DNA from: a virus
Direction: 5' to 3' (one strand)
Length of the DNA: 64,000 bases
Virus record (IMG/VR): IMGVR_UViG_3300037264_004862
Coordinates: 1-64,000 of that record
Positions 11,115 through 56,120 of the stretch are shown here, one piece after another. Each line of letters begins with the position of its first letter. Positions within the stretch are counted from its first letter, which is position 1. The notes under the pieces were generated by a model that searched no databases, was not told where the DNA came from, and saw nothing but the letters and a program-made list of their open reading frames with translations. The translations under genes were made by a program, and so were the position numbers.

Positions 11115-11116
11115 TT

Positions 11117-11964: not shown

Positions 11965-11979
11965 TTTGCCTCCTGTGTG

Positions 11980-12270: not shown

Positions 12271-12304
12271 TGTTAAGCCTCCAAATGTGAATATGACAGG
12301 TGTG

Positions 12305-12864: not shown

Positions 12865-12885
12865 TTTTGGGGTCTCTCCTAAGAA

Positions 12886-13320
12886 TTAAACTCTCTTCGG
12901 CTTCCGACCGATCGACACAACCTGAAATGGCTTGGAGCTCTTCATCCACTCAGCGTACGGCAAGGGGCCAGGCCTGAGACCGTCCAACACCGCATCAGGG
13001 TCGTAGACCATGCCATCGTGAAACGCAACGGCATGAGAGCAGCTGCAGAAGGTAACAAGCAAAATTCCGCGTCCACTCAAGTTTGGTGAGGCTGTGCTTG
13101 CGGGGAGAGGTAAGGCCCCCCGGAATAATTGCAACAGTTTGGTTGTCCACGGGAACAACTCCGCTGCTTGATCGTTCGCTTTAGTCAGACCAAGCGTCTG
13201 TTCTATGCGGTTGAACTCACGCTCAAGGTCCTCGTAGTCACGCTGGGACACGTCTTCTACAGCGCAGATCGCCGCAAGGTAGCATGCGTTGTTACGTGCA
13301 GACTTCTTAATGTCCTGCAT
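12886..13320 (-). CDS. putative papain-like cysteine protease fold protein
   Basis: 144 aa; TTGGAGGGGAGAC precedes the ATG. N-terminal NNACYLAAICAV gives a Cys at the start of a helix; later SHAVAFHDGMVYDPD gives His in a strand followed by Asp, the Cys-His-Asp order of papain-like peptidases. The family is not identified and activity is inferred. It lies just after the two tRNAs. Confidence 0.5.
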   Translation of the reverse strand: MQDIKKSARNNACYLAAICAVEDVSQRDYEDLEREFNRIEQTLGLTKANDQAAELFPWTTKLLQLFRGALPLPASTASPNLSGRGILLVTFCSCSHAVAFHDGMVYDPDAVLDGLRPGPLPYAEWMKSSKPFQVVSIGRKPKRV

Positions 13321-13353
13321 GTCTCCCCTCCAATGTGTGGTACCAAATTCAAA

Positions 13354-13429
13354 TGGTGCCTTGGGTGAGAATTGAACTCACAACTCCTTGGTTAAAAGCC
13401 AAGTACTCTACCAATTGAGTTACCAAGGC
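13354..13429 (-). tRNA. tRNA-Lys (anticodon TTT)
   Basis: 76 nt. Acceptor GCCTTGG/CCAAGGC, discriminator A and encoded CCA; D arm with GG; anticodon stem CTTGG/CCAAG with loop CTTTTAA; T arm GTGAG/CTCAC with TTCAATT. All parts are canonical. One base separates it from the upstream tRNA. Confidence 0.95.
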
Positions 13430-13430
13430 A

Positions 13431-13516
13431 TGGTGGACCTGGAGGGATTCGAACCCCCGATGTCTTGCGACGGCGGCTTATGAGGCCGCTGCTCTTGGCC
13501 ACTGAGCGACAGGTCC
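13431..13516 (-). tRNA. tRNA with CAT anticodon and long variable arm
   Basis: 86 nt. Acceptor GGACCTG/CAGGTCC, discriminator A, CCA encoded; anticodon stem GCGGC/GCCGC with loop CTCATAA, so anticodon CAT (Met, or Ile if the C becomes lysidine). The variable region is 14 nt with its own stem (GTC-GCAA-GAC), a class II feature normal for Leu, Ser and Tyr tRNAs. The D arm is class-I-like, while the variable and T arms resemble bacterial tRNA-Tyr. Confidence 0.9.
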
Positions 13517-13621
13517 GTGTGTGTTACGCTCTTGGGGGCCACTTACGTTATAGGAAAGCTCGAAGTCATCGTGGGGAGGGGAATCCTATAGAGGCTACCT
13601 GTGTGTTACATCGAAGTCAAA

Positions 13622-13846
13622 CATCTTGTAAGAAGTCTAAATTAAGACTTCAAGTTCAAGATGCGATAAAAGGTGGCAGGCCAGTTCCCTTGGCTTCAAG
13701 GGACACTCTTCTGAGGTCCTTCCTCACCTGCCACCCTCTCCTCCACTCCGGGTTCAGGCTCTTCCCTCCCCGGCCAGCTTTCAAAATATTTCGTGGGTGA
13801 GATATCGGTCACCCACGCCGGGTTCGGGTCATGAGCACCTACCCGG
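13622..13846 (-). ncRNA. candidate structured RNA segment (RNA-3)
   Basis: The gap between tRNA (13516) and 13884..14087 holds nested inverted repeats: 13622-13628/13657-13663 around 13632-13638/13645-13651; 13672-13680/13727-13735 (9 bp) around 13686-13692/13697-13703; 13793-13800/13809-13816 (8 bp); 13818-13823/13841-13846. On the minus strand the 9-bp helix is followed by TTTTAT. It may be one RNA, or a leader plus terminators. No gene is evident. Confidence 0.5.
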
Positions 13847-13883
13847 AAGATTTCTGACCACATGTGTGGTACATCAAATTTTA

Positions 13884-14087
13884 CTAAGAAAGTTTCTGTG
13901 AGGGGGCCTGATACTGCGTGATCGAGGTGTAGGTGTCCAGAGTCGGGTTGAAGCAGCCGCTGATTTGTTCGCTGACACGCTTCTTGGCCTTGATGATGGC
14001 CTTGCTCAGGGCCTCATTGGAGTCTTCTGCCTCCACCGATTCAGACACCCGAACCTTGAAAACCAGAGAGACGCTGAAGGATGGCAT
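13884..14087 (-). CDS. small beta-alpha protein
   Basis: 67 aa from the ATG after GGAGGGAAGAC. MPSFSVSLVFKVRVSESVEA then a helix (DSNEALSKAIIKAKKRV), like small dodecin or ferredoxin-like folds. Function unknown. Confidence 0.6.
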   Translation of the reverse strand: MPSFSVSLVFKVRVSESVEAEDSNEALSKAIIKAKKRVSEQISGCFNPTLDTYTSITQYQAPSQKLS

Positions 14088-14213
14088 GTCTTCCCTCCAA
14101 ATATGAAAGCAAGTAGAAAGCGGATGTTGCCGGAAGGATGCCAAGGTGAACGAAGTTCAGGTGTGGTACTGAAATGCCCTCTGAGCCCATCCAAGCGGGT
14201 GAGCTTAAAGGAC

Positions 14214-14235
14214 GGGGGGTCCTTGCGGACCCCCC
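14214..14235 (-). terminator. GC-rich hairpin terminator
   Basis: Perfect 9-bp stem GGGGGGTCC/GGACCCCCC; the minus-strand loop is GCAA, a GNRA tetraloop. It lies 26 nt beyond the stop of 14261..14707, after a GTAACACACC element. Followed by GTCCTTTAAGC, so only a short T-run. Confidence 0.6.
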
Positions 14236-14260
14236 ATCAGGAGCATCAGGTGTGTTACGA

Positions 14261-14707
14261 CTACTCCGCCTCGACCTCCTCGGCGACCTCCTCGGCGACT
14301 TCGGCGTCGGCCTCGGGCTTCGCGGCCAGCTGCTTGGCCTTGAAGTCCGCGAGGAGCTTCTTCTGGGCGTCTCGGGTCGCCTTGCGCGCCGCCGACTTGC
14401 AGCCCTCGCAGGTGCTCACCTGGAAGAGATCGCTGGTGAACACCTCGCGGGTCGCCTCGCACCCCTTGTCCTCGGGGTCCGTGCAGGTGATCGTCGCCAC
14501 CTGCTTGTTCTTGATCGCGTCGAAGCGCACGGAGCCCTTGATCACGTGCGGGTACTTCGCCTCGATTTCCGCCGCGCCCATCCGCCGCGAGCGACCCTCG
14601 CTCTTGATCGCGGACTTGAGCTGCTTGACCTGCGCCTCGCTCAGCCCCATCGACTTCGCCACGGAGTCGATGTCCTGCGAGGTCTTCGCGACCTGCGCGC
14701 TGTCCAT
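14261..14707 (-). CDS. Cys-containing protein with acidic tail
   Basis: 148 aa from the ATG after GGAGGTTGGC. N-terminal helices (VAKSMGLSEAQVKQLKSAI), then a central part with C-x7-C and CEGC (possible zinc site), a basic helix, and an acidic tail of EVAEE repeats encoded by a short GC-rich repeat. GC content is high even for this half of the window. Function unknown. Confidence 0.65.
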   Translation of the reverse strand: MDSAQVAKTSQDIDSVAKSMGLSEAQVKQLKSAIKSEGRSRRMGAAEIEAKYPHVIKGSVRFDAIKNKQVATITCTDPEDKGCEATREVFTSDLFQVSTCEGCKSAARKATRDAQKKLLADFKAKQLAAKPEADAEVAEEVAEEVEAE

Positions 14708-15065
14708 GCCAACCTCCACAAAAAGGGAACACCAAAAACCCGACCGCGACATGCAAGCCGGGACGCACGATCTTTCGCCAAGAGCCACCCTATCCGGGCG
14801 GGACAGGGCGCGGAATCATGGGCGAGAATCCCCGCCGCTCGGTCACCCCCCACGGCCCAAGGCCGCGTGGGTGCGTTGTTGACCTAATCACCCCATCACG
14901 GGCGAACGACGCCACAATCATATGCACACATCTATGCTTGGGGGCGCGGGGGATTATCGCGTATACTATGGGGGGACCCGTAAGGGAGTATGGGGGGAGG
15001 GGGGTCGGATTGCTCCTTCGTACGCGATATATTTCCGCGCCGAATCTTCAGAATGTTGTGGGGGA
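14708..15065. other. GC-rich gene-free stretch with G-quadruplex-like tract at the composition boundary
   Basis: No credible gene. At 14970-15004 the plus strand has four G-runs (6, 3, 6 and 6 bases) with loops of 1-8 nt, fitting a G-quadruplex motif. Immediately to the right the sequence turns AT-rich and stays so. Open frames here run on both strands only because GC is high. Confidence 0.5.
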
Positions 15066-15254: not shown

Positions 15255-15557
15255 TTACTTAATATTATTAAATCTTATGTGATGGAACCAACTTAAATAC
15301 AGTTCAAGTTTATTAAAGAATTTGGGGTCAGCCGCCATTAACTGTCCTGGAGAATAATTTATGCAAGGAGTGGCCCCCATCCTAAGATATACACTATCAT
15401 CCTTAATAATCACTAAACTAAAAGTATCATACCCCTTAATTATACTAAAGATAGCTGGAATGTTATCGTCGTAGCCACATGCATAGGCTTGGTTTAATGA
15501 ATTATCTTTCAACCAATTACTAATAATATTTGGAAGCAACTCACGATAATGAAACAT
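15255..15557 (-). CDS. WL/DPxFF family protein 1
   Basis: 100 aa. NIISNWLKDNS near the start and DPKFFNKLELYL near the end carry both family motifs; between them are alternating hydrophobic strands. First member of the array on this side, and separated from the next by a plus-strand gene. Function unknown for the whole family. Confidence 0.75.
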   Translation of the reverse strand: MFHYRELLPNIISNWLKDNSLNQAYACGYDDNIPAIFSIIKGYDTFSLVIIKDDSVYLRMGATPCINYSPGQLMAADPKFFNKLELYLSWFHHIRFNNIK

Positions 15558-15592
15558 GTACGTTTCATATACTGTAGAAGAGTATATAAATT

Positions 15593-15820
15593 ATGAAGAC
15601 AAAATCTCGATTCGAAATTTTCTCGCGCAGGTCGAACAGAGGGTGGCAACGTCTACTACCGGCGATTCTCCGTAAAACTTGTTGGTATTGGCGACTTGTC
15701 GCCGCTAACGGTGAAATTATAGCTGTGGGGACTGAACCATTCGCATCCAAAGAGAATACAGAACGCGCCATTGAAGTTGTACGCCACCACGTCGCTAAGG
15801 CGGAAGTCATGGTGAACTAA
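15593..15820 (+). CDS. YegP/DUF1508-like protein
   Basis: 75 aa, divergent from the array. FEIFSRR...WYWRLVAANGEIIAVG followed by SKENTERAIEVVRHH matches the YegP (DUF1508) repeat: a strand with R-W-R-L-x-A-x-N-G-E-I-I, then a helix. One repeat only, where bacterial YegP has two. Family function is unknown. GTATATAAATT lies just upstream and may be a promoter part. Confidence 0.75.
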   Translation: MKTKSRFEIFSRRSNRGWQRLLPAILRKTCWYWRLVAANGEIIAVGTEPFASKENTERAIEVVRHHVAKAEVMVN

Positions 15821-16061
15821 GGAGTGCTTCCAACTTATTGAAGCATTCTGGATCACTGACCTCGAGTTTGTAACATATCGTGCAATCCCCCACGAACCTT
15901 GATACTTCTATTTGGGTATTCTCAGGTCTTGTTAATACAAGCCAAGGCTGAGAAACATTTTTAGGTACCCAAAATGCATAATCCAGAAAGCAGCAGGCCG
16001 TTATTAAAATTCCTCTCTCTTGAAGCCATTGTCTGAGAAGGGTGTCTAGTTCAAGACTCAT
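15807..16061 (-). CDS. WL/DPxFF family protein 2
   Basis: 84 aa. TLLRQWLQERGI and DPECFNKLEALL. The first Phe of the C-terminal motif is Cys here. Overlaps the upstream member by 11 nt and the plus-strand gene at its 3' end by 14 nt. Confidence 0.75.
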   Translation of the reverse strand: MSLELDTLLRQWLQERGILITACCFLDYAFWVPKNVSQPWLVLTRPENTQIEVSRFVGDCTICYKLEVSDPECFNKLEALLSSP

Positions 16062-16356
16062 TCAATACTCTTTTTAGTTTAGGAAAACATTCTGGATCCC
16101 TACTATCTAAGATGGTACGCGTGACATATGTATAATCTTTATGTCTGGCACAAATACAACAAGGGCAAGATACCATTATCTCTATATCGGGGTTTAAAGA
16201 CCAAGTTCTGATCATTTTAGATTCGTTTTTGTGGACCTTAAACAATTGGTAGTTGGTGGGCGTTTGATCTATAGTAAAGGTATAATCATTTTCTGTGAGC
16301 CAGTCACGCATTAGCTCCCACATCTCAATGGTATCTTTATACTTGTCTGTCTTCAT
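16051..16356 (-). CDS. WL/DPxFF family protein 3
   Basis: About 101 aa from the ATG at 16356 (a longer reading starts upstream). ELMRDWLTENDY and DPECFPKLKRVL. The middle has CPCCICARH, a Cys cluster not seen in other members. Starts inside the end of 16337..16609. Confidence 0.7.
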   Translation of the reverse strand: MKTDKYKDTIEMWELMRDWLTENDYTFTIDQTPTNYQLFKVHKNESKMIRTWSLNPDIEIMVSCPCCICARHKDYTYVTRTILDSRDPECFPKLKRVLNES

Positions 16357-16609
16357 ATATGTCGCATTTAGTACAGGCTGTCTGGAGATGGAGCGTAGCA
16401 TTATCTAGCTGCTTTATTAGAAGCCCCCCACATCCAAGATGCTCAGGATAATATCTCCGGGCTATCTCACTATCAGGAGCTATATAGGTACCTTTTCCGC
16501 ATTTCTTACAGGGCTTGGTAATTTGGCGGGTAATGAAATTGAATGTTAGAGTACGAGTCCACGGGTGCGAACACGACGAAGATTGTTCCTGTGCCCTTGA
16601 TAGGTCCAT
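16337..16609 (-). CDS. zinc-ribbon protein inside the array
   Basis: 90 aa. C-x-H in the N-terminus, then CKKCGKGTY and a late CTKC suggest a zinc ribbon. It overlaps members on both sides (20 nt at its 3' end; about 100 nt at its 5' end with 16506..17078), so one start may be later. Not a family member by sequence. Confidence 0.55.
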   Translation of the reverse strand: MDLSRAQEQSSSCSHPWTRTLTFNFITRQITKPCKKCGKGTYIAPDSEIARRYYPEHLGCGGLLIKQLDNATLHLQTACTKCDIYEDRQV

Positions 16610-17078
16610 TTATTTTATATCCGTTAAATAAACAATTATAAAAGTTGATGGAGGGACCACCTTGTGGTGATAGAATCTGTAAACCGCCGTCTGTAGGAGC
16701 ATAATTTATAGGTGGCTGAGGGTCCCTATTTAAATACTGCTCCATCTCTTCGAAGAAGGTGGGGTGCCCTGCCATAATAGTTTTAACGGGTGGTCCAGTG
16801 AAGGTGAGGTCCTGGAGCCCCATGAAATTTGAAATTTCTATTTTAGTTGAAGTAATCTGGACTTTGTTGGTAGTGATTAACATATATGAAATACACTTTG
16901 GGCTATAGCTAGGCTCTACCTGGTATATGGGGTAACCGTCCATCTTGGGGTCATAAGGCTCTACCTGGTATATGGGGTAGCCATCAACGACTGCGATTGT
17001 CTTAAAATTGAAATTTTTCTCTATTAACCACCCTATGACAATGTCCCATAACAGATGGTCGTTATTCCAGTCACTCAT
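16506..17078 (-). CDS. WL/DPxFF family protein 4, with internal repeat and long tail
   Basis: 190 aa, the longest member. DIVIGWLIEKNF at the start; HPTFFEEMEQYL at about residue 110. DGYPIYQVEP occurs twice, 16 residues apart, from a recent tandem DNA duplication (near 16905-16990). After the family domain come about 65 extra residues rich in Pro, Gly and Tyr, overlapping the next gene. Confidence 0.7.
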   Translation of the reverse strand: MSDWNNDHLLWDIVIGWLIEKNFNFKTIAVVDGYPIYQVEPYDPKMDGYPIYQVEPSYSPKCISYMLITTNKVQITSTKIEISNFMGLQDLTFTGPPVKTIMAGHPTFFEEMEQYLNRDPQPPINYAPTDGGLQILSPQGGPSINFYNCLFNGYKINGPIKGTGTIFVVFAPVDSYSNIQFHYPPNYQAL

Positions 17079-17386
17079 GATAAATATGCCTTAAGTTGTT
17101 CGAAGATGGTGGGGTCCCAAGCCTGAATTTCAACAATTCCGGGCCGTGGGGGTCCAGGAAGCCCTATCTGTATCTTGTCTTTTAGAATCATCATCCCACG
17201 TTTTTCTACCCCAGCTGACAATGCAATAGGGAAAGAGACTGGGACCACCGCCTTGAGTCCATTAAGTGGACATTGAACATAAAGGAGCACGAAATCTGAG
17301 TAATTTTCAAATTCGTAATTATAGCCATTATCGTCCAACCATAAGTCTATTAAGTCAAATAAATTATATTTCTCGCTACTCAGCAT
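17075..17386 (-). CDS. WL/DPxFF family protein 5
   Basis: 103 aa. DLIDLWLDDNGY and DPTIFEQLKAYL; ends directly at the motif helix. Its stop overlaps the next start (ATGA). Confidence 0.75.
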   Translation of the reverse strand: MLSSEKYNLFDLIDLWLDDNGYNYEFENYSDFVLLYVQCPLNGLKAVVPVSFPIALSAGVEKRGMMILKDKIQIGLPGPPRPGIVEIQAWDPTIFEQLKAYLS

Positions 17387-17606
17387 TTAGACCCTGCTTG
17401 GCGTGCCACACTGCAATAGATGGTTCCCAAGCAACCTCGGCGCATTTTGCATGAGCTGGGGCTACAAACAATTCTATGCCTTGAAGCTTAGGGAATTTAG
17501 TAAAGCGTATTGCCAATAGGCAGCATTCTTCATCTTTTAAAAAGTCTGCTTTACAGATAAGACACGACTTTATGGCTTCGTCATCTTCATATTTAAATGT
17601 TTTCAT
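17376..17606 (-). CDS. small Cys-rich protein
   Basis: 76 aa. CLICKADFLKDEECCLL and a later H-x-K-C suggest a zinc-binding treble-clef-like unit. It overlaps the next member by 11 nt, so it is part of the same operon, but lacks the family motifs. Confidence 0.6.
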   Translation of the reverse strand: MKTFKYEDDEAIKSCLICKADFLKDEECCLLAIRFTKFPKLQGIELFVAPAHAKCAEVAWEPSIAVWHAKQGLNAE

Positions 17607-17683
17607 ATTTTGCGCCTCGGGTCACTAAGGAGCTCTTTACATTCTTTATGGGCGTTTTCGTAGTTCAGTCGTCTAATCAAATA

Positions 17684-18427
17684 TTACTTGATTTCCGTGA
17701 GCGCACGGACGTTCGACGCGTCGGCGTTCGCGGCGTGCAGCGCGTAGAGCCGCGCGCTGCCGGTGACGATCGTCACGCGGTAGTCGCGGCGCGCGTCGTT
17801 GTCCGATTCGCGGAGCAGGTCCAGCATGTATCGCGCGAACGCGTCCGCGAGCGTCGCGCGATAACGCCGCGCGTAGCCGTCCATCGTTTCCTTCGTGTAT
17901 GCGCCGTCGTTGTCGACGTGCCACGAGCAGTTGTCGCCCATCGGACACATCGGATCGCCGCACGACCAGCTGATGCGTGCCGTCGGGTCCAGGCAGAAGC
18001 GCAGGTCGACGTCCCGTCCCGCGTGGACGTTCTCCGCGCGAAGGCGTAGGAGGTACCACCGCGCCTTCTTCTCGTCCAACGGATGCGCGGTGCGCGTCGC
18101 AGGGTTCCAGTAGTCCACCCACGCGTCGTACGGCGCGAGATAGCGGTCGACGAGCGCCTCGCCGAGCAGCGCGCGGGCGTCCACGACGTCCCGGCGGATC
18201 TCCTCGCGGCGCGATAGCGAAGTCGGTGCAAGCTGCGCCGGGTGTAGCGCGTAGGGCGCTGATTGCTTTACTCGCTCGGCTTCCCAATCAATCGCCGCTT
18301 CCTGCGCGGCCTTCGCCTTGCGCGGCTTCACCACGCCGAGGATTAGATACATCATGCCGCCGAGCGTCACGACGACCGCGAGGGTCGTCAATAGCTCCTT
18401 CCACGCGCGTTTTAGGTCGGGAGACAT
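17684..18427 (-). CDS. membrane-anchored protein of a GC-rich island
   Basis: 247 aa; GAGGAGGACAC precedes the ATG. Residues 11-32 form a transmembrane helix; the large remainder is Arg/Ala-rich with a Cys cluster (SCGDPMCPMGDNC). Base and codon use (strong GC third positions) is wholly unlike the AT-rich neighbours, so recent acquisition is likely. Family not recognised. Confidence 0.65.
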   Translation of the reverse strand: MSPDLKRAWKELLTTLAVVVTLGGMMYLILGVVKPRKAKAAQEAAIDWEAERVKQSAPYALHPAQLAPTSLSRREEIRRDVVDARALLGEALVDRYLAPYDAWVDYWNPATRTAHPLDEKKARWYLLRLRAENVHAGRDVDLRFCLDPTARISWSCGDPMCPMGDNCSWHVDNDGAYTKETMDGYARRYRATLADAFARYMLDLLRESDNDARRDYRVTIVTGSARLYALHAANADASNVRALTEIK

Positions 18428-18600
18428 GTGTCCTCCTCGTCTAAAAATCCGATCGGCAGTTCGCCGGGCTTACAGGCGAGCCGTGCGCCGCGATAGCAGC
18501 CGAGCGAGAAGCGGTGCGTCTTCATCGCCCAATGGTGCCGGTGCAACCGGTCGATGAACGCGTTCGCGTCGTACAGCTCGATCGGACGGACAGTAAGCAT
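18412..18600 (-). pseudogene. truncated XF1762-like acetyltransferase
   Basis: 62 codons. The start, with V-R-P-I, then a D-A-N-A-F-I-x5-R-H-H segment and H-R-F-S-L-G, resembles the N-terminus of the GNAT-related XF1762 family, which is usually about twice as long. After about 42 residues the match is lost and the frame ends overlapping 17684..18427. It begins within the 3' tail of the tRNA-like sequence. It may be a deletion remnant, still translatable. Confidence 0.5.
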
Positions 18601-18673
18601 AGAGCGGGGCGCCCGAGTTGAACGGACATCTCCCCGATGGAATCAGGGTGCGTTGACGTTACGCCAGCCCCGC
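18600..18673 (-). tRNA. tRNA-like gene, probable Gly (TCC), atypical
   Basis: Acceptor GCGGGGC/GCCCCGC, D stem GCGT/ACGC, anticodon stem CCCTG/CGGGG (one wobble) with loop ATTCCAT, T stem GTCCG/CGGGC with TTCAACT. The cloverleaf is complete, but the D loop lacks GG, the discriminator is T and the tail is CTA instead of CCA. It may be a decayed tRNA marking an integration point. Confidence 0.55.
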
Positions 18674-18687
18674 TCTACGACTACGAT

Positions 18688-19011
18688 CTATCCTGTCGAC
18701 TCATGCATTTGGACTAGTAATTTTTCAAGTTTGTTAAAAAACTTTGGGTCCTCTACTATTAAAGCTTTCAGTTCTAAAAGATTCCTATCCCAATTTTTAA
18801 TCCCATTATTGTTAATGTAGAGGCGCATCCCCATGTCGCCGTGCTTGGTCCAATAGCGATTTGGGCATGAATAAGTGATATAATGCGTGGGAAAGCGTGC
18901 TTCATTATCATCAATTTGACGATCTATGACAATGAAATGATCACGAAGAATTGGATGTTCACAAATCCAGCCCTCAATCAGATGCGGCAGCTTTATAATT
19001 TCGGTTATCAT
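18688..19011 (-). CDS. WL/DPxFF family protein 6
   Basis: 107 aa. HLIEGWICEHPILRDHF and DPKFFNKLEKLL. The spacing P-I-L-R-D-H-F after the W motif is shared with members 8, 9 and 12, which suggests a subgroup. Overlaps the upstream member by 38 nt. Confidence 0.75.
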   Translation of the reverse strand: MITEIIKLPHLIEGWICEHPILRDHFIVIDRQIDDNEARFPTHYITYSCPNRYWTKHGDMGMRLYINNNGIKNWDRNLLELKALIVEDPKFFNKLEKLLVQMHESTG

Positions 19012-19261
19012 ATGGAAAATATTTCCCTAAATGTTCAAATAGATTAGGGTCACTTATATTATATGTCTTAGCAGTCATGTCCGTATAAACATCTATATTT
19101 TGAGATACTATGACATAAGTGTTGTTTTCTTCATACCACAAATACAGACCTGGCCCTTTTGGTGGACGGACCCAATGTAATCGACCACTTATACACCAAA
19201 TGTTAGTAAGACTGTATCCGCGCTCCTGTAACCAAAACTGAATGAGTCCTGCTGCAGTCAT
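18974..19261 (-). CDS. WL/DPxFF family protein 7
   Basis: 95 aa. GLIQFWLQERGY and DPNLFEHLGKYF, plus a polar tail. It has the L-Q-E-R-G spacer seen in member 2. Overlaps the upstream member by 4 nt. Confidence 0.75.
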   Translation of the reverse strand: MTAAGLIQFWLQERGYSLTNIWCISGRLHWVRPPKGPGLYLWYEENNTYVIVSQNIDVYTDMTAKTYNISDPNLFEHLGKYFPYDNRNYKAAASD

Positions 19262-19608
19262 GCGGTATTTAAGAATCGTAAAATAAGCTTTTCGAGTTTC
19301 TTGAAGAATTTTGGATCTTCTGCTTTAATTATGTTGTTTCCATAAATAGACCTGATCGGTCCAGGCTGAAGAGCCATAAGATCCCAACGAAAAATCACTC
19401 TTGTCAACTCAATGGTTGCTATCCAGGTTTCTGGATCGTATATGTCATGCGGACGATGTTTCATTCTGATTTGGCCGACATCAGGTGGATAAAATAGGCT
19501 TCTATAATCTACGTTTTCCGTGTCTATGATAGATATGCGATCTCGTAACTTCGGTCGTGCCATCACCCAATCATGAATTAGATGACTTAAGTTCACAGCT
19601 TTTACCAA
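19258..19608 (-). CDS. WL/DPxFF family protein 8
   Basis: 116 aa; start TTG or a nearby GTG, both before HLIHDWVMARPKLRD. C-terminal DPKFFKKLEKLI. Subgroup with members 6 and 9. Confidence 0.7.
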   Translation of the reverse strand: MVKAVNLSHLIHDWVMARPKLRDRISIIDTENVDYRSLFYPPDVGQIRMKHRPHDIYDPETWIATIELTRVIFRWDLMALQPGPIRSIYGNNIIKAEDPKFFKKLEKLILRFLNTA

Positions 19609-19981
19609 ATTCCACCTTATGCATTAAGTACATTATGCGCTTTAGTTTAGTAAAAAATTCTGGATCACTCGATGGTATCTCTGCGGTCTTTTTAAGACCA
19701 ATCGAATTACCGGCATGCAGTTTAATGCGGTCATCAAGTATGAATGCTATTGGACGTCGACATAACTCTCCAGTAAAAATATATCGTTGAAACGCGGAGG
19801 TGCTGTGAACTGGACAGCAAATCATATTAAGTGAAGAAACTACAGTTGCTTGGTCGGTTAGTTTATTGATAGCATTATCGATTACAACAGAAAAATGCTC
19901 TACCAACAAAACATCAGCTATTAACCAATCATATATTAAATAATCTAAAGTAACCACAAACTTATTTCCCGTCGTTTTCAT
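19571..19981 (-). CDS. WL/DPxFF family protein 9
   Basis: 136 aa. YLIYDWLIADVLLVEHF near the start and DPEFFTKLKRIM, with a longer middle and tail than most. Overlaps the next gene by 38 nt. Confidence 0.75.
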   Translation of the reverse strand: MKTTGNKFVVTLDYLIYDWLIADVLLVEHFSVVIDNAINKLTDQATVVSSLNMICCPVHSTSAFQRYIFTGELCRRPIAFILDDRIKLHAGNSIGLKKTAEIPSSDPEFFTKLKRIMYLMHKVEFGKSCELKSSNS

Positions 19982-20354
19982 CCCATTTACCTAATATGTT
20001 GAAATAAGTTGAACTGGATGGCGGAGACGACAATATCGTTAAAAGGCGCTCAAAAAAGTCTGGTTCGCAACAACTAAGAACTACAACATTAACTCCTATG
20101 GCCCATGTGCTATCTTCAAACTTATGGGCTGGTAAACAGTTCAATTTTTGTATACCTTCTTTATTAAAGACTCCAGTAGTCAAAATAATTATACTATTAA
20201 TATCATTGTTGTCTTCAGTAATATTAATAGTATATTTTGGATCTATATTAGGTAAATCAATATTAATGTTTTTTTTGTTAAAAGTAAATGTATATCCCCC
20301 GTTAGTAAGCCAATTAACAATAAGTTCAAGTAAATTAGGTACTTCAGGCTCCAT
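19962..20354 (-). CDS. WL/DPxFF family protein 10
   Basis: 130 aa. ELIVNWLTNGGY and EPDFFERLLTIL (Asp replaced by Glu in the first position). Very Asn/Ile-rich middle. Overlaps the next by 20 nt. Confidence 0.75.
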   Translation of the reverse strand: MEPEVPNLLELIVNWLTNGGYTFTFNKKNINIDLPNIDPKYTINITEDNNDINSIIILTTGVFNKEGIQKLNCLPAHKFEDSTWAIGVNVVVLSCCEPDFFERLLTILSSPPSSSTYFNILGKWDENDGK

Positions 20355-20589
20355 CTATAAACCTCTTCATTTTTTCAAATAGCTTCGGATCAGTCCAACT
20401 AAAAGACTCTATTACACCAGGCTTAGTCATCCACACAAAAACATTATCAACGGTAACGTCAATGCGTATCGAATATTTTCCAACAAACATGATTAAATAA
20501 TCATTTCTTATTTGTTGTATTAAATACGAAGTTTTATAGGTTTCTTGAATCCATGCGCGTATGATTTCTATTTCTTCGGATGTGTCCAT
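20344..20589 (-). CDS. WL/DPxFF family protein 11
   Basis: 81 aa, one of the shortest. EIIRAWIQETY and DPKLFEKMKRFI. Shows the minimal family architecture: helix, about five strands, helix. Confidence 0.75.
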   Translation of the reverse strand: MDTSEEIEIIRAWIQETYKTSYLIQQIRNDYLIMFVGKYSIRIDVTVDNVFVWMTKPGVIESFSWTDPKLFEKMKRFIDGA

Positions 20590-20945
20590 TTAGGTCTACA
20601 ATATTTATTATAATGATGATGGATTTCATATAATAGGCGTCTTAAATCGTCGAAAAAAGTAGGACTAGCCGCATTGATAGAGATCCACCGGTCGGAAAAT
20701 GAAGTGATCATCTCATCACCTATATCACTTTCTACGCTATCAATGCTTATCCAACAAGCAAATTGATCATATGAATGATAATTATTATCATGATAACATG
20801 AAAGATTTATAGAAGTAACAACACTATTAATAGAACGTTTAATTATGAAATGATTATTTAAGAATAAATCTTCTTTTAGCCAATTCTCTATGATATCAAC
20901 TAGCTTCGGATATTGGTCTATGGGCGTTTGTAGGTCAGAATTCAT
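20568..20945 (-). CDS. WL/DPxFF family protein 12
   Basis: 125 aa. DIIENWLKEDLFLNNHF and SPTFFDDLRRLL, then a basic, His-rich tail. Subgroup with members 6, 8 and 9. Confidence 0.75.
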   Translation of the reverse strand: MNSDLQTPIDQYPKLVDIIENWLKEDLFLNNHFIIKRSINSVVTSINLSCYHDNNYHSYDQFACWISIDSVESDIGDEMITSFSDRWISINAASPTFFDDLRRLLYEIHHHYNKYCRPKWTHPKK

Positions 20946-21017
20946 ATAATCGATATCGAATCTGGAGGCGTTGAAAACCCAATTTCACTAGTGTAACATC
21001 GATCATAACTTCATATT

Positions 21018-21146
21018 TCATAAGATCGATATACATAATTTGGTCATATTTCCATATCCCACTTTGATTAGATTTGGATATAAAAAATCATTGAAATCTT
21101 TTTGATTTCGTAGCCACTCGTTCACTATGTTAGCAAGGTCATTCAA
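21018..21146 (-). pseudogene. truncated WL/DPxFF family member
   Basis: 42 codons from a TTG that overlaps the upstream stop: LNDLANIVNEWLRNQKDF carries the N-terminal motif, but the frame ends before the C-terminal half. The remaining 70 bases before the next gene give no D-P-x-F-F in any frame. Read as a decaying copy. Confidence 0.5.
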
Positions 21147-21384
21147 TACGCAATCCAACTATAAGTCTTTTCTTCAAAAGACTAAAAAATTTTGGGTTAC
21201 TAGCATACAAAGTACCTTTACTGGTAGTTATATAATTATCATTTACTACAAGCAATAACATTTTATGAGGATTGTTAACAAGACTTACTATTATGATACA
21301 CAGATTAGTTTTAGATAATTTAGCAATGCATTTAAATTCTAGTTGGTCAGCTAGCCATTGTTTAACTAGATCAAATAAGCTCAT
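21139..21384 (-). CDS. WL/DPxFF family protein 13
   Basis: 81 aa. DLVKQWLADQLEF and NPKFFSLLKKRL. A 12-bp palindrome GTATTTAAATAC lies 19 nt upstream of the ATG (21403-21414) and may be a promoter or operator. Confidence 0.75.
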   Translation of the reverse strand: MSLFDLVKQWLADQLEFKCIAKLSKTNLCIIIVSLVNNPHKMLLLVVNDNYITTSKGTLYASNPKFFSLLKKRLIVGLRIE

Positions 21385-21402
21385 AAATCTTTCGCAAGTT
21401 TG

Positions 21403-21414
21403 GTATTTAAATAC
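21403..21414 (-). promoter_or_regulatory. GTATTTAAATAC palindrome upstream of member 13
   Basis: Perfect 12-bp palindrome. Similar GTATTTAA-like sequences lie 10-45 nt upstream of the starts at 23009 (23042-23054), 24047 (24081-24090), 25395 (25414-25423) and 26540 (26550-26558). Candidate phage promoter core; AT-rich background makes chance matches possible. Confidence 0.35.
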
Positions 21415-21423
21415 TTTCAGGCA

Positions 21424-21621
21424 TCACTTTGTGTGTGATTTGATTTGTTTTATTATGACTTGTATCAAAAAGTTAGTTTTACGTTTTTTTGGTTCCCACT
21501 CTGCTGGATTTATAGTCACATGTGGATCAAAAGCCGTCAAAAAGAAATAAAACATACCTACAAATAGGACGAAAAATATTGCCAATCCTTTTATAGGGAG
21601 CCAAAATTTTTTATAGGTCAT
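21424..21621 (-). CDS. single-helix membrane protein
   Basis: 65 aa. Residues 9-30 form a transmembrane helix (IKGLAIFFVLFVGMFYFFL); the C-terminus is basic. Overlaps the stop of member 14. Lies inside the array but is unrelated by sequence. Confidence 0.6.
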   Translation of the reverse strand: MTYKKFWLPIKGLAIFFVLFVGMFYFFLTAFDPHVTINPAEWEPKKRKTNFLIQVIIKQIKSHTK

Positions 21622-21890
21622 TTGTGTCGTTTAGATACTTTATCTATAAATGCCTTGAATTTTTCAAAGAATTCAGGGTCACCTATCGGAAGTGGCTTTG
21701 ATAGCTCTTTATAATCTGTAGTAGGTATGATTTTATAGTTGACTATGGCAGCTATTAATACTTCATTTTCGCTGTGGATTATATAGGCTCTTATAGCCCA
21801 ATGTGGGTAAGCAGGATCTGGAATACTCCAAACAAAATAAGTTGGGCAGTGCTCGGCTAGCCAATTATCAATAATAAGCTCAAGATTCAT
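21618..21890 (-). CDS. WL/DPxFF family protein 14
   Basis: 90 aa. LIIDNWLAEHCP and DPEFFEKFKAFI. Middle strands include HWAIRAYIIHSENEVLIA. Overlaps member 15 by 11 nt. Confidence 0.75.
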   Translation of the reverse strand: MNLELIIDNWLAEHCPTYFVWSIPDPAYPHWAIRAYIIHSENEVLIAAIVNYKIIPTTDYKELSKPLPIGDPEFFEKFKAFIDKVSKRHK

Positions 21891-22188
21891 AGTATGTCAT
21901 TGTCCCAAACTCGTCTCGATCTAACACATAGACACAAAGCTTGAGGAATTTTTCCAGTTCATCAAAGAAATTGGGTCTCATGACTGATAACGGTCTAATA
22001 TAATCTATATCTGGCAATAAAATTGGAGAGACGCCATCTTTTTCAATATAAGCTATAAACGCTCTTGTATCTTTATGGTATATGATGTATGGTCTATGCT
22101 GGCCTCTATTATGTAATTGGAGTACTGAGAAGCCACTAATATCTTCTTCTTTCAACCATTCAGATATGAGTTCATCTAACGTAATCAA
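21880..22188 (-). CDS. WL/DPxFF family protein 15
   Basis: 102 aa. ELISEWLKEEDI and RPNFFDELEKFL. N-R-G before the first central strand is shared with member 16, suggesting recent common origin. Overlaps member 16 by 4 nt (ATGA). Confidence 0.75.
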   Translation of the reverse strand: MITLDELISEWLKEEDISGFSVLQLHNRGQHRPYIIYHKDTRAFIAYIEKDGVSPILLPDIDYIRPLSVMRPNFFDELEKFLKLCVYVLDRDEFGTMTYYES

Positions 22189-22460
22189 TGGTGGTACTCT
22201 TTATAATGGTTATCTAGGATATGCCAGAGTTTATCTAGAAATAAAGGGTCACCTGCCTGAACTTCTATGATGGGTCTTGTAAATGCTGCGATATGATCTG
22301 TGAAAATGGCGACAATATAGTCGTCGCCTTCAATCATCGGCCAACTGTGTTCACGACAAAAAACATAATCACAAAGTCCCCTATTTGGATATCGATAAAC
22401 GCCCCAGCCAATTGCTGGCTTTGACCGTAACCATGTCTCGATTAGGTCAGTAAGGGACAT
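22185..22460 (-). CDS. WL/DPxFF family protein 16
   Basis: 91 aa. DLIETWLRSKPAIGW and DPLFLDKLWHIL. Stop overlaps the next start. Confidence 0.75.
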   Translation of the reverse strand: MSLTDLIETWLRSKPAIGWGVYRYPNRGLCDYVFCREHSWPMIEGDDYIVAIFTDHIAAFTRPIIEVQAGDPLFLDKLWHILDNHYKEYHH

Positions 22461-22471
22461 CTATAGTATGT

Positions 22472-22645
22472 TCACTTATAAATAGTTTCACCACACTTAG
22501 GGCATGTTGGATTCCAAAATTCACGAGTAGGCCATTTCTTAGATAGGAGAAGCTGCCACTCTAAACCGCAACACTCCCATATCCGTAATCTAAATATCCA
22601 TTTCTTGACTTCTGGGTGTTGCCATCGTTCTGTTCTAATTGTCAT
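22472..22645 (-). CDS. zinc-ribbon microprotein
   Basis: 57 aa. ECCGLEWQ and, about 26 residues later, CPKCGE form a two-knuckle zinc ribbon. It fits exactly between members 16 and 17. Function unknown. Confidence 0.6.
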   Translation of the reverse strand: MTIRTERWQHPEVKKWIFRLRIWECCGLEWQLLLSKKWPTREFWNPTCPKCGETIYK

Positions 22646-22652
22646 AATTGTC

Positions 22653-23009
22653 TTAGATATTTCTTAGAACTACTTTTGCCTCAGTGGTGCGATTTTCTAT
22701 ATGCCTAATTTGCTTATTAATTTCATCTTCAAGCTTTTCAAAAAATTCGGGATCATGTGCATTGATAGTATGCCTTACTTTATGGATATCTGAGTAACTG
22801 ACCTCGAATTCTGAAACATCTATTATCTCATAAAATAACCATTCAGGAAAATAGGGTCCATTTCCAGCACTCAAAAGACGTGTGTGATGGTATCTTATAG
22901 TGCAAGATACCGATTGGTCTCCGTCTCCCCAGTTGGTGAACCTGTGGATAGTGAGTTTGTCCATTTTCTTGGTTTCAAACCATTTCTCTATAAGGTCAGC
23001 TATAGTCAT
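22653..23009 (-). CDS. WL/DPxFF family protein 17
   Basis: 118 aa. DLIEKWFETKKM and DPEFFEKLEDEI, then a charged tail. One of the clearest matches to the consensus. Confidence 0.8.
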   Translation of the reverse strand: MTIADLIEKWFETKKMDKLTIHRFTNWGDGDQSVSCTIRYHHTRLLSAGNGPYFPEWLFYEIIDVSEFEVSYSDIHKVRHTINAHDPEFFEKLEDEINKQIRHIENRTTEAKVVLRNI

Positions 23010-23078
23010 TTATAAATCTATCTATGCAAATAGTTCACGATGTAGTTTAAATACGATCAACAAATAATCTTAGACTAA

Positions 23079-23366
23079 TCAAATTTCTATGATGAAATAA
23101 TGAAGTCGACGATTAGCGCATTGTTCACACAAGATAGTCAAAAGTTTATCAAAGAAGTCTGGATCTGCTATGTTAAGTACAACCTTATTGAATTCACCAT
23201 GTTTGGGGGACCAATAATAAGCCGTATCATCGACGATCCTAATCCGATTTATACCAGAACTGTGGTAGTACTGGCACTCAATCATACTGCTGAGATCATT
23301 AACCTTATAGTGCGAACTCAACTTATTTTCTTTGAGCCATGCTTTAATGAGATCGTTTGTTTCCAT
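23079..23366 (-). CDS. WL/DPxFF family protein 18
   Basis: 95 aa. DLIKAWLKENKL and DPDFFDKLLTIL. Start shares one base with the stop of member 19. Confidence 0.8.
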   Translation of the reverse strand: METNDLIKAWLKENKLSSHYKVNDLSSMIECQYYHSSGINRIRIVDDTAYYWSPKHGEFNKVVLNIADPDFFDKLLTILCEQCANRRLHYFIIEI

Positions 23367-23680
23367 TATTTAATTGGTGTTTTACACCATTGTGTTTTAT
23401 TATGTGCTTTTATAATTGTTTCTCTCAAACATTCAAAAAAATTAGGTTGACTCGCTATTAATGTTACTATTTTAAGTGATCCTACGGATGGGCCGGTATA
23501 AAGATCTATGCCGTTAGAATAAATTTCGCCATAAATGAGCCCATTTAACGATACAAGATATGGGATGGGCCGTCGGCATAGGCCCATAATACAACAATTG
23601 CTCATAATAAAGTGCTTTGAGAGTTCGCTGTCGTCTTCGATCCACTTGCCGATCAATTCTTGTAGATTCAACATACTCAT
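23366..23680 (-). CDS. WL/DPxFF family protein 19
   Basis: 104 aa. ELIGKWIEDDSELSKHF and QPNFFECLRETI; Cys-containing middle. An internal ATG two codons in could also be the start. Confidence 0.75.
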   Translation of the reverse strand: MSMLNLQELIGKWIEDDSELSKHFIMSNCCIMGLCRRPIPYLVSLNGLIYGEIYSNGIDLYTGPSVGSLKIVTLIASQPNFFECLRETIIKAHNKTQWCKTPIK

Positions 23681-23726
23681 TTGTATATCAAATTTCGATA
23701 GATGTAATGTCTTATCTAAGATTCTA

Positions 23727-24047
23727 TTAAGTTTTTTGTGGCGTCTCTGGCGTTAGCTTCTCTTGAGCTCTTTTAGTTGATTGTCTTGTAAATTTGCGTT
23801 TTAAGGCTATGTCGTCTTTGTGAGTTTCGTTATGTCGACGTAATTTTTCTTTGGCTTCTTTAGACATTGGATGATGAATGCCTAATACTTTTCTAATCAG
23901 TTTTTCGGCTTGTCCATCATTTCCAGCTTTACGGGCGTCGATAACTTGTTGCCAGCCATCATTAGATAAGCAATCTTTTGAATGCCAATGGGCTTTTAAG
24001 TCAGCTATTTTATGGTAACCTGACTTTTTACAACTTCCGCAAACCAT
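23727..24047 (-). CDS. zinc-finger protein, basic
   Basis: 106 aa. CGSCKKSGYHKIADLKAHWH followed by C fits a single C2-H-C type zinc finger, then a long basic helix (KEKLRRHNETHKDD...). Possibly DNA-binding, and a candidate regulator of the adjoining array. Not a family member. Confidence 0.6.
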   Translation of the reverse strand: MVCGSCKKSGYHKIADLKAHWHSKDCLSNDGWQQVIDARKAGNDGQAEKLIRKVLGIHHPMSKEAKEKLRRHNETHKDDIALKRKFTRQSTKRAQEKLTPETPQKT

Positions 24048-24089
24048 GACCTATTTCTCCATCAGGCTATAAACACTATTAATTAAATA

Positions 24090-24350
24090 CTAAAAAATAT
24101 TCTCTACACCTTCAATTGCTATTTCAAGTTTATTAAAGAATTCAGGGTCAGCCACTTCAAGTTCTAGTCCAGGATCTACAACTACCCAAGTATCACCAAT
24201 AGCTCCGAATTTATAATCATAACCAGTACTACGTGTAATAATAGTTAAATCATGACAATTTGCAGCAACATTTTTGGATATGAATATTCTGCTATGCTTG
24301 GTGCTACTACCAAGCCATGCAGCAATAGCACGAGGTAAATCTAATTCCAT
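24090..24350 (-). CDS. WL/DPxFF family protein 20
   Basis: 86 aa. RAIAAWLGSSTK and DPEFFNKLEIAI. Confidence 0.75.
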   Translation of the reverse strand: MELDLPRAIAAWLGSSTKHSRIFISKNVAANCHDLTIITRSTGYDYKFGAIGDTWVVVDPGLELEVADPEFFNKLEIAIEGVENIF

Positions 24351-24356
24351 ATTATA

Positions 24357-24641
24357 TTATGGCCATATTTGATGACGCGCCTTTTTAAACTTGTCTTGGT
24401 ACCAAGCGGCATTCGAAAAATACTTGCGCAATAAATATTGATCTAATTTCGCAAAAAATTCTGGATCTGATGCACTTATGCCTGCAACGCTATCGTCTGC
24501 GATAGTTACATAAAGGTTGCTACCGATATAGATATGTGACATGGCTCGTCCTGGGCGTATGGAATTATCGACAACTCTAAGTCTTATCCATCCTGCAGTA
24601 GGAAGCCAATCACTAATTAATTGTGATAACGACACTGTCAT
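24357..24641 (-). CDS. WL/DPxFF family protein 21
   Basis: 94 aa from the ATG after GGAGCTCAGTCCC (a TTG upstream is less likely). QLISDWLPTAGW and DPEFFAKLDQYL, then a basic tail. Its start lies within the end of the Thg1-like gene. Confidence 0.75.
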   Translation of the reverse strand: MTVSLSQLISDWLPTAGWIRLRVVDNSIRPGRAMSHIYIGSNLYVTIADDSVAGISASDPEFFAKLDQYLLRKYFSNAAWYQDKFKKARHQIWP

Positions 24642-25395
24642 GGGACTGAGCTCCAATTAGATCTAAAATCAGCTTTTTATATTCGTCTTTAGTCGGAAGA
24701 TTCTCATCAAGCTTGACTTGTCTACGTACAACTTTAACAACTTTATTTTCTCGCGGATTGAAACCGTCTTTAACATAGTTCTCCCAATATAGACCAGTAC
24801 CATGTTTCTGCCAAGCAGGAACCATATTAAAATCGACATTGCGTGCAGAGAGCACATGGAGCTTGTCGTCTACAGTTTTATTTTTAAGCATGGAAGATGC
24901 CTGACTAGAAGAATAGCCATGCGATCTGAGTGTCCAATATGCCCAACCGTTTAGAGCGCAACGCTCTGCGTCTGTCTGTCTCCATCGGAAGTAATCTACA
25001 ACCTTTGGTTCGGTAGTACCAACCCAAATACGGCTATCGAAATGGCCTCTTAAGTTTGCTTGTTCGCTAAAAGCAACGCTTGCAATGCTTGCAGATAACG
25101 AAACCAGTTTTTCGAGCTCACGATCAAAAATTTTGAAGTTCTTATCTAACAGTATGGAAATTTCATCGCTTTCAGTAAATGCATAAATGCCATTGAATTC
25201 AACAAGTAGCATTTGAGCTACATGGACCATTATTCTATGGAACTCTATATCAAATGGTTTTGCAAAATGCTTTTCAGTAAGACCAGAAAAACCTCTGCCA
25301 TCTACACGAATAACAGGATATAAATCTGATCCGACTTTAATAGAATGAAAAACTTCGAATTTCCGCATTTCTTCTTCGAATTTGGTGTTGTTCAT
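24613..25395 (-). CDS. thg1: Thg1-like tRNA(His) guanylyltransferase / 3'-5' nucleotidyltransferase
   Basis: 260 aa from the ATG at 25393-25395. Thg1 enzymes add nucleotides in the 3'-5' direction; eukaryotic forms place G-1 on tRNA-His, bacterial and phage Thg1-like proteins repair tRNA 5' ends. RVDGRGFSGLT (D32) and FTESDEISILL (D77, E78) are the metal-binding Asp and Asp-Glu of the polymerase-like palm. No tRNA-His gene is seen here, so a repair role is as likely as G-1 addition. Confidence 0.85.
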   Translation of the reverse strand: MNNTKFEEEMRKFEVFHSIKVGSDLYPVIRVDGRGFSGLTEKHFAKPFDIEFHRIMVHVAQMLLVEFNGIYAFTESDEISILLDKNFKIFDRELEKLVSLSASIASVAFSEQANLRGHFDSRIWVGTTEPKVVDYFRWRQTDAERCALNGWAYWTLRSHGYSSSQASSMLKNKTVDDKLHVLSARNVDFNMVPAWQKHGTGLYWENYVKDGFNPRENKVVKVVRRQVKLDENLPTKDEYKKLILDLIGAQSHDSVVITIN

Positions 25396-25428
25396 ATAGC
25401 CTATATAGACCATGTTAAAATACTGTAG

Positions 25429-25785
25429 ATGTATCAATCATTTTATGAGCAAGGGGAAAATCTTACAGATGCCAAACTTATCGCAAATACCATAGACCAC
25501 GCATTAATGGCTCAGAAAATACAACTAGAAATGACTGTTCATTTCATGAACACAGGCTGTTTTATTACAATATTATTAGGAAATGGCCACGGTGCGTCAT
25601 GGAACATTAATTGGGCATTAAATAGCCCATATCAATTAGACACAGGTGTTGGGTTTTTGTCTTTGGCTGATCCAAACTTCGAGGCCAAACTGGCCGATCA
25701 TATCACTAAGATTGCGATGGTCATGACCCGGTTTTGTGGGTGCTCGGAGTGTGATCGGAGGGTGGTATTTGATTTTGGATATTAA
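25429..25785 (+). CDS. possible divergent WL/DPxFF family protein on the plus strand
   Basis: 118 aa, divergent from the Thg1-like gene. The C-terminal SLADPNFEAKLADHI matches the D-P-x-F-x-x-K-L block; the N-terminal LIANTIDHAL takes the place of L-I-x-x-W-L. A Cys pair (CGCSEC) lies in the tail. Membership is tentative. Confidence 0.6.
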   Translation: MYQSFYEQGENLTDAKLIANTIDHALMAQKIQLEMTVHFMNTGCFITILLGNGHGASWNINWALNSPYQLDTGVGFLSLADPNFEAKLADHITKIAMVMTRFCGCSECDRRVVFDFGY

Positions 25786-30023: not shown

Positions 30024-30347
30024 ATGAAAAAGTCAGGGTTGGCTTATTACTCACTACGCCGTAGACATTTTTGTACGCCTGTAGCAGATAAACGATATAG
30101 AGATCTGACGATTGGCGATGAATTTGACGAACATGATGATAACGCTATTCGCCAAGTCATGCCAGAGGACTTGTTAGATGCCACAATCCTAGTTGAATCT
30201 ACCGAAGACAATAGATCGCATTACATACGTGTATCTTACTGTGATGTTCAGGAATCCAAGGCTATCAATGACCTAGTCACAATTGATATTGACAAAAATG
30301 GAAAACTAGTCGGCGTGAAGCTAAATTATTCTTGGCCTTCAAGGTAG
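30024..30347 (+). CDS. DUF2283-like protein
   Basis: About 107 aa from the ATG at 30024. The C-terminal half, HYIRVSYCDVQESK...VTIDIDKNGKLVGVKL, matches the DUF2283 pattern (strand, acidic strand D-x-D-x-x-G-x-L-V-G). Family function unknown. Overlaps 30339..30677 convergently by 9 nt. Confidence 0.65.
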   Translation: MKKSGLAYYSLRRRHFCTPVADKRYRDLTIGDEFDEHDDNAIRQVMPEDLLDATILVESTEDNRSHYIRVSYCDVQESKAINDLVTIDIDKNGKLVGVKLNYSWPSR

Positions 30348-30677
30348 ATATAAGTACCGAGGAATCATTCCTAGGTACTTATTTATAGCACATTCAAATT
30401 CCACAAAGAACTTGGGATCAGCAGCGTAAAGTTGTGTTGCTTCATTAGATTTAATGCCAGATGCTGTCTCGGCTACGATTTCTAAGTTCTTGACTACAAA
30501 GACGCAATTATTTAAAATATAAATACAAGGCCACATATCGTAGTCTATAGCTGCTTCAATAGGGTAATCTGAAGCATGGCGCACATAACTGCGCACTTGA
30601 AATGGATGAAGCGGCCATGTTTCCATTACTAAGTCTCTAACGATCTGCGTTAGAGAAAGATTTTCATGCCCCATCAT
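30339..30677 (-). CDS. WL/DPxFF family protein (isolated member)
   Basis: 112 aa. QIVRDLVMETWPLHPF takes the place of the N-terminal motif; DPKFFVEFECAI is a clear C-terminal motif. Lies 5.7 kb from the array among unrelated genes. Confidence 0.7.
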   Translation of the reverse strand: MMGHENLSLTQIVRDLVMETWPLHPFQVRSYVRHASDYPIEAAIDYDMWPCIYILNNCVFVVKNLEIVAETASGIKSNEATQLYAADPKFFVEFECAINKYLGMIPRYLYLP

Positions 30678-55418: not shown

Positions 55419-55816
55419 AGCTTAAATTCTTACACGAAAGCCTTGAAGATAATATTAAGAAACAATTAGGGCTAGCTTACTTTAAGAAGTTAGAAGACCC
55501 AAACCGTTTGAGCTCGTTAGATAGACTCAATCAAAACCAGCCTGAACGCTCTGGCAACCAAGATACTCCGTTAACACCTCGGCTACGTCGTTTCTTCAAC
55601 GCTCCTACTGGAGCTACTGTTGGGAAGATTGGATTCCAAGATAACGACGATGCCGAATCAAAGCACGCCCGTGATAGTTCTTTAGATGATGAGAAAGTTT
55701 CGTCTCTCGATTATCCGAAGGACGAAGATGAATTAGAGAAAGAAATCTCTGTGCGTGCTCGTAAAGAATTCGGATACCTCGCCGTAGCCGGAGCCAAACC
55801 CCATCTACAGTTATAG
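55415..55816 (+). CDS. hypothetical acidic protein
   Basis: 133 aa from the internal ATG overlapping the upstream stop (TATGAAG). Polar and probably flexible in the middle. Overlaps 55614..56120 antisense by about 200 nt. Confidence 0.55.
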   Translation: MKLKFLHESLEDNIKKQLGLAYFKKLEDPNRLSSLDRLNQNQPERSGNQDTPLTPRLRRFFNAPTGATVGKIGFQDNDDAESKHARDSSLDDEKVSSLDYPKDEDELEKEISVRARKEFGYLAVAGAKPHLQL

Positions 55817-56120
55817 GAATTGTATCAGGATATAAGTCCCAATATCTAAGTTCAGTGTGGTCCAAATGTTCGCCTAACTTTTCCAGCATATCCTGATTAT
55901 ATATATTTAAACTGTTGGAGTACCAACCAGATGGGGTTGGTATCCAGCAAACGACATCATTAGATTTTGTATAAATATGGACCACTGATTCATATGTGGA
56001 CTTGAATTTCCTACCAATGCGACGAATATAGCGGATATCATTTGTAGTTGACTCAACAACTTCATAATTAAAACCACTTTCAAGGAGCCAATCCGCTAAG
56101 AGTTGGTGTAGTTTAATCAT
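55614..56120 (-). CDS. WL/DPxFF family protein with antisense-overlapping tail
   Basis: 168 aa from the ATG at 56120. QLLADWLLESGFNY and NIYNQDMLEKLGEHL carry family motifs (aromatics of the second replaced). Past residue 95 the frame runs on into a basic tail (RALIRHRRYLGI) through the antisense of 55415..55816; the stop expected of a normal member is absent. Confidence 0.55.
   Translation of the reverse strand: MIKLHQLLADWLLESGFNYEVVESTTNDIRYIRRIGRKFKSTYESVVHIYTKSNDVVCWIPTPSGWYSNSLNIYNQDMLEKLGEHLDHTELRYWDLYPDTIPITVDGVWLRLRRGIRILYEHAQRFLSLIHLRPSDNRETKLSHHLKNYHGRALIRHRRYLGIQSSQQ

Follow-up and report, generated by a model that had tools for sequence, protein, structure and literature searches.

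The window analyzed here (i.e., the first 64 kb of the 122,824-bp IMG/VR virus record IMGVR_UViG_3300037264_004862; G000) carries an array of 21 intact small genes and one remnant, all on the minus strand between positions 15255 and 24656 and all belonging to one homologous family of small proteins (approximately 80 to 135 amino acids [aa]). Eleven of the 20 junctions between array genes overlap, by 1 to 38 nucleotides (nt), and the other nine are gaps of 6 to 1301 nt. Unrelated small open reading frames (ORFs) occupy several of these gaps, and a tRNA-Gly gene lies in one; the overlaps of 4 to 40 nt given in the initial annotation of this DNA are corrected accordingly. That annotation also equated the family with the array at 15255 to 24641. 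The array is present there, but the family extends to two further copies outside it, both recovered by a profile built from the 21 array members, in frames 30342 to 30719 and 55617 to 56144 (genes in Table 1). In the remnant frame, NDLANIVNEWLRNQKDF is retained and followed by a stop; the frame is decayed (profile E value, 3.9). The window also encodes a DnaE-type polymerase, a DnaB-like helicase, and a Thg1-like tRNA-His guanylyltransferase, and the same record carries genes for a baseplate hub, a baseplate wedge, and a ribonucleotide reductase outside the window. On the basis of these genes, G000 is a contractile-tailed phage, which is known solely from environmental DNA.

The single architecture that the initial annotation proposed for about 21 intact genes and a remnant was confirmed. 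The aligned consensus of the array members is L..LI..WL...(variable)...I..D...L..DP.FF.KL...L, and identity is low, as had been noted for the positions outside the motifs (mean column identity, 15%; maximum pairwise identity, 31%). Leave-one-out profiles recovered 21 of the 21 members (E ≤ 2e-4 at Z=2000), a slightly optimistic result, since each left-out row had already been in place when the alignment was built. The profile search returned 24 matches in the window, while the reversed window DNA and five triplet-shuffled windows returned 0. The window arrays and those of a related viral record (G001) also matched each other in a profile-profile comparison (probability, 98.4; E value, 4.9e-15).

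Table 1 Features of the array and its surroundings in the window. Counterparts are given in the related records G001 and G002; E values are those of the array-only profile (21 members).
Feature	Coordinates	Strand	Remarks
Array member 1, Thg1 end	24357..24656	-	Syntenic counterparts G002 14354-14680, G001 27751-28125
Array member 2	24090..24350	-	Counterparts in G002 and G001
Array member 3; Cys/His variant	23366..23680	-	Counterpart in G002
Array member 4; AlphaFold-modeled	23079..23366	-	pLDDT 84, pTM 0.75, H-EEEEE-H; counterpart in G002
Array member 5	22653..23009	-	
Array member 6	22185..22460	-	G002 counterpart, 54% identity
Array member 7	21880..22188	-	
Array member 8	21618..21890	-	G002 counterpart, 48% identity
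Array member 9	21139..21384	-	
Remnant copy	21021..21158	-	N-terminal half (NDLANIVNEWL...) ended by stop
Array member 10; Cys/His variant	20568..20945	-	
Array member 11	20344..20589	-	
Array member 12	19962..20354	-	
Array member 13; Cys/His variant	19571..19981	-	
Array member 14	19258..19608	-	
Array member 15	18974..19261	-	
Array member 16; Cys/His variant	18688..19011	-	
Array member 17	17075..17386	-	G002 counterpart 5229-5546
Array member 18; C-terminal extension	16506..17078	-	
Array member 19	16051..16401	-	
Array member 20	15807..16061	-	
Array member 21	15255..15557	-	
Outlying family member	30339..30677	-	E 4.5e-4
Outlying family member; C-terminal extension	55614..56120	-	E 2.5e-3
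Thg1-like tRNA-His guanylyltransferase; array-boundary marker in three phages	24613..25437	-	
Unrelated small Cys/His-containing gene within array	23727..24047	-	Conserved: G001 44%, G002 53%

Two members from different phages were modeled with AlphaFold2, and both models show the same order of elements (i.e., helix, five short strands, and helix) rather than unrelated folds. The window copy (23082 to 23366), modeled with 72 family sequences, reached a predicted local distance difference test score (pLDDT) of 84 and a predicted template modeling score (pTM) of 0.75, and a G001 copy, modeled with G001 sequences alone, reached 92.5 and 0.82, respectively; the two alignments are not fully independent, as the 72-sequence set also includes G001 sequences. 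Over 107 domains, constraint falls on columns (L6, L9, I10, W13, L14, I53, D56, V58, L74, A76, D78, P79, F81, F82, K84, L85, and L89) that for the most part hold hydrophobic core residues or the helix-capping DP, while the remainder is close to random (entropy of most other columns, 3.5 to 4.2 bits). To judge from the alignment, the role of the conserved residues looks structural, and the lack of a conserved polar set resembling an active site favors a scaffold over an enzyme. A Cys in the second-strand region is coupled with a His or Cys at a spacing of exactly 14 residues C-terminal to the DP-motif Pro (Fisher p = 1.6e-5 as the best of 28 offsets; approximately 4.5e-4 after correction, with paralogues that are not independent). 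Many G001 copies carry CxC and the coupled His, some of them with an extra His ahead of the first strand. These residues likely define a sub-branch of the family with a putative zinc site.

In Foldseek searches of PDB, neither model had a match at E ≤ 0.001 (best E values, 0.48 and 1.2), and the highest query TM-scores (TMq) among the matches listed were 0.40 and 0.31, one per model; the first model also had no match at E ≤ 0.001 in BFVD. Since Foldseek is insensitive for small domains and the libraries searched were PDB and BFVD, these results are to be read as no confident match and not as a proven new fold. The YbjN/type III secretion chaperone-like fold (PDB 6vu7 and 2bsh) is likewise small and alpha/beta and was among the higher TM-scores, but at TMq values of 0.40 (E value, 1.7) and 0.30 (E value, 6.6) it is not a match. 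Mll2253 (PDB 3q63), an SRPBCC/AHSA1-like protein, gave a weak profile match (E value, 0.02) with similar end motifs (LIEEWL and PxFFEKLE); it is probably a chance match, given the i-Evalue of its best stretch (0.27), its larger size (151 aa), and its absence from the listed fold matches.

Searches of 72 members against Pfam, PHROGs, NCBIfam, and PADLOC revealed no shared family (i.e., only isolated weak single-member matches to differing families), and PDB sequences provided no known functional domain. The profile search for a functionally defined domain that the initial annotation had suggested therefore returned none, and its statement that it knew of no described family with these motifs was borne out in these libraries. 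So far as the searched libraries and the open-license literature show, the protein family is undescribed; nothing relevant on phage paralogue arrays was found in open-license papers.

Motif DNA patterns served as contig queries. The pattern DP[DE]FF[DE]KL[DE] matched three of 2.9 million viral contigs, each with multiple copies, and the last pattern run yielded zero new true contigs; in 84,980 prokaryote genomes, the motif pattern had nine matches and zero family members. Neither a tblastn search of 50,697 phage records with four members as queries nor a profile search of six large named phages detected a convincing relative, and this absence is provisional, as single-sequence searches are weak for a family this diverged. 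One match in Atu_ph07 (E value, 0.07) contains ten stops. With Thg1 as bait, six otherwise unrelated viral contigs with relatives (40 to 53% identity) were obtained, none carrying the family, while exonuclease and baseplate baits provided more relatives, of which G017 was the sole new family-bearing record. Iterated profiles (E ≤ 1e-3) counted 23 family domains in G000, 31 in G001, 24 to 25 in G002, 9 in G003, 7 in G004, 6 in G005, 5 in G006 (408 kb), 3 in G007, and 8 to 9 in G017, all of which are lower bounds, as several records are fragments, some were partly read, and the G001 array reaches the contig end. The family thus totals approximately 115 copies in nine uncultivated viral contigs. 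One G001 ORF (33716 to 34366; approximately 217 aa) is a fusion of two family domains.

The higher G002 count (25) includes the counterpart of a gene located beyond Thg1 (25429 to 25785, plus strand), which was part of the seed profile, so 24 is the safer value. This gene is similar to the family by eye (DPNFEAKL) and was initially aligned, but it was dropped at an array-only profile E value of 9.6. It is conserved (52% identity in G002 and 37% in G001), and its product is possibly a very distant family relative.

Core genes are colinear among G000, G001, and G002 over approximately 27 kb, and each of these records has its array start immediately downstream of Thg1. Within this conserved locus, the copies differ in sequence and in number (21 in G000, about 24 in G002, and at least 31 in G001). 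The order of the Thg1-proximal copies is kept between G000 and G002, while most counterparts farther off are gone. By BLAST, 7 of the 21 window copies have a counterpart in G002, the closest relative, at 33 to 54% identity (median, 46%), whereas 35 core genes have a median identity of 62% (Mann-Whitney p = 6e-4). This comparison covers matched copies only; since the 14 copies without an accepted counterpart were left out, the true contrast between array and core is larger. The array therefore diverges faster than the core, in line with the strong diversification proposed in the initial annotation. In the seven syntenic pairs, the proportion of nonsynonymous differences (pN) is 0.30 to 0.48 and that of synonymous differences (pS) is 0.67 to 0.85; the lower pN indicates real proteins under constraint (i.e., purifying selection).

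Ribosome-binding sites precede 2 of 24 genes in the window array, 4 of 24 at the G002 locus, and 4 of 20 at the G001 locus, versus 13 of 37 core genes, a soft observation because gene starts were set by rule. Their scarcity, together with the overlapping gene ends, suggests translational coupling. A promoter scan gave no signal above that of shuffles. Two other ORFs stand out near these genes. The ORF at 17684 to 18427, within the array region, has a G+C content above that of its surroundings and no Pfam match, and it is possibly a recent acquisition. At the far end of the array, a DUF1508 protein (Pfam E value, 3.2e-13) is encoded on the opposite strand (15593 to 15820, plus strand) and has a counterpart in G002.

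We propose, with a probability of roughly 0.5, that one scaffold radiated into a set of binding proteins, which would serve the phage in host takeover or counter-defense. The homology, the shared predicted fold, the conserved locus, the turnover, and the fast divergence are established by the data above; binding, distinct targets, and the role are inferred, and the counter-defense, host-factor binding, or immunity-like recognition named as examples in the initial annotation are likewise hypotheses. The array would be an operon-like paralogue set of one small soluble phage protein, probably cytoplasmic, with the alpha-beta(5)-alpha fold predicted above. As copies were duplicated and diverged very rapidly, only residues that maintain the fold would have been kept and the remaining surface freed, so that each copy most likely binds a different host macromolecule (e.g., a defense protein or a takeover target) and the array may work as a replaceable repertoire. 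The combination of a fixed core, a free surface, a variable copy number, a conserved slot, and fast divergence fits such a repertoire, and the spread of isoelectric points among the copies (4.4 to 9.9) is expected if their binding partners differ.

Several results weigh against this proposal. No anti-defense or takeover family matches by sequence in the libraries searched. G014 and G015, in which the exonuclease is 42 to 44% identical, have no family copy (both contigs are fragments), so the array is dispensable or lineage-specific. In G001, similarity drops with distance along the array (Spearman coefficient, -0.30; permutation p = 0.0005), which is a mark of tandem duplication; no such decay is present in G000 (p = 0.54) or G002 (p = 0.36), and tandem duplication is thus visible in G001 only. 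Finally, pS is saturated in the syntenic pairs, so the ratio of nonsynonymous to synonymous substitution rates (dN/dS) is meaningless as a test of positive selection.

Among the alternatives, the copies might bind nucleic acid (e.g., as small regulators of transcription or RNA) or act as DNA mimics. Their small size, alpha/beta fold, and Cys/His subset with possible zinc binding would suit such a role, as would the position of the array near tRNA and tRNA-processing genes. However, net charges at pH 7.2 span about -11 to +14.5 (median, about -2) and are neither uniformly basic, as for a binder, nor uniformly acidic, as for a mimic. This spread lessens the weight of both versions, and the members as a set match no nucleic-acid-binding family; we regard this explanation as unlikely. 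We are similarly doubtful that the array is mostly neutral (i.e., a duplication-prone locus in which copies drift with weak or no function). Neutral copies would decay well before the divergence seen here, whereas the motifs persist in 21 open frames that share at most 31% pairwise identity, and every syntenic pair has a pN lower than its pS; the remnant copy, the high turnover, the absence of the family from some relatives, and the ribosome-binding sites, fewer than in the core, are what neutrality has in its favor.

It is similarly unlikely that the copies form a hetero-oligomeric phage assembly, whether structural, compartment, or replication-associated, in which each paralogue fills one position. 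The single shared fold, the operon-like overlapping layout at many junctions, and the G001 fusion ORF are compatible with it, but a fixed assembly is expected to retain its parts, while records differ in copy number (3 to at least 31) and the closest relative lacks counterparts of most copies. The copies could also be immunity-type proteins, as in polyimmunity loci, directed against toxins that competitors of the host or superinfecting phages produce. Diverged small immunity proteins do form arrays in polymorphic toxin systems, but this reading is improbable here, as one weak Tsi6 match (E value, 0.007) among 72 members was the only Pfam immunity hit and no cognate toxin was recognized in the subset of neighboring ORFs scanned.

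Beyond the array, window positions 1 to 15000 have a G+C content of approximately 0.48 to 0.53, compared with approximately 0.39 beyond 20 kb, and contain few long ORFs. Parts of this region share synteny with the left end of G002, and it appears to be genuine phage sequence. The ORF at 13884 to 14144 is 98.6% identical over 74 aa to G002 ORF 1306-1692, versus approximately 62% for core genes, which suggests a recent exchange.

If the binding-protein repertoire is real, this phage lineage would have built a multigene family of binding proteins of its own on one scaffold. Each array would then be a ready list of candidate inhibitors of host or defense proteins, and the shared fold with its free surfaces would offer a natural setting in which to study the evolution of binding specificity. 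A broader and more tentative possibility is that a previously undescribed fold serves phages as a general evolvable binding scaffold, similar to antibody mimetics, with a fixed core and a changeable surface, arrays that swap specificities in step with changing hosts and defenses, and a zinc-stabilized sub-branch.

Comparisons with known systems place the array as follows. The targets of diversity-generating retroelements have near-identical template and variable repeats, unlike the array copies, whose pairwise identity is at most 31%. Polyimmunity arrays of polymorphic toxin systems likewise consist of small diverged proteins, but the present array has a phage location, no known Pfam immunity domain, and no toxin recognized among the neighboring ORFs scanned. 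The closest precedent for the proposed role is the host takeover module of Bacillus phage SPO1, a cluster of 26 phage genes; their products shut down distinct host processes (PMC6873191). The one-direction layout of such a cluster is found here (21 small genes on one strand, with 11 of 20 junctions overlapping). The SPO1 takeover genes are presumably mostly unrelated to one another, whereas nearly all genes of the present array encode a single fold. Takeover or counter-defense by small proteins is already known, and a single-fold array is not; to our knowledge, a phage multigene binding-protein family on one scaffold has not been described. Such single-scaffold families are well known in large animal viruses. 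The poxvirus Bcl-2-like proteins and the asfarvirus multigene families, which are expanded families of large eukaryotic DNA viruses, differ from the array in proteins, hosts, and locus, and no sequence relation is expected. They likewise form tandem paralogues with variable copy number in a fast-evolving region, and they are used against host defense.

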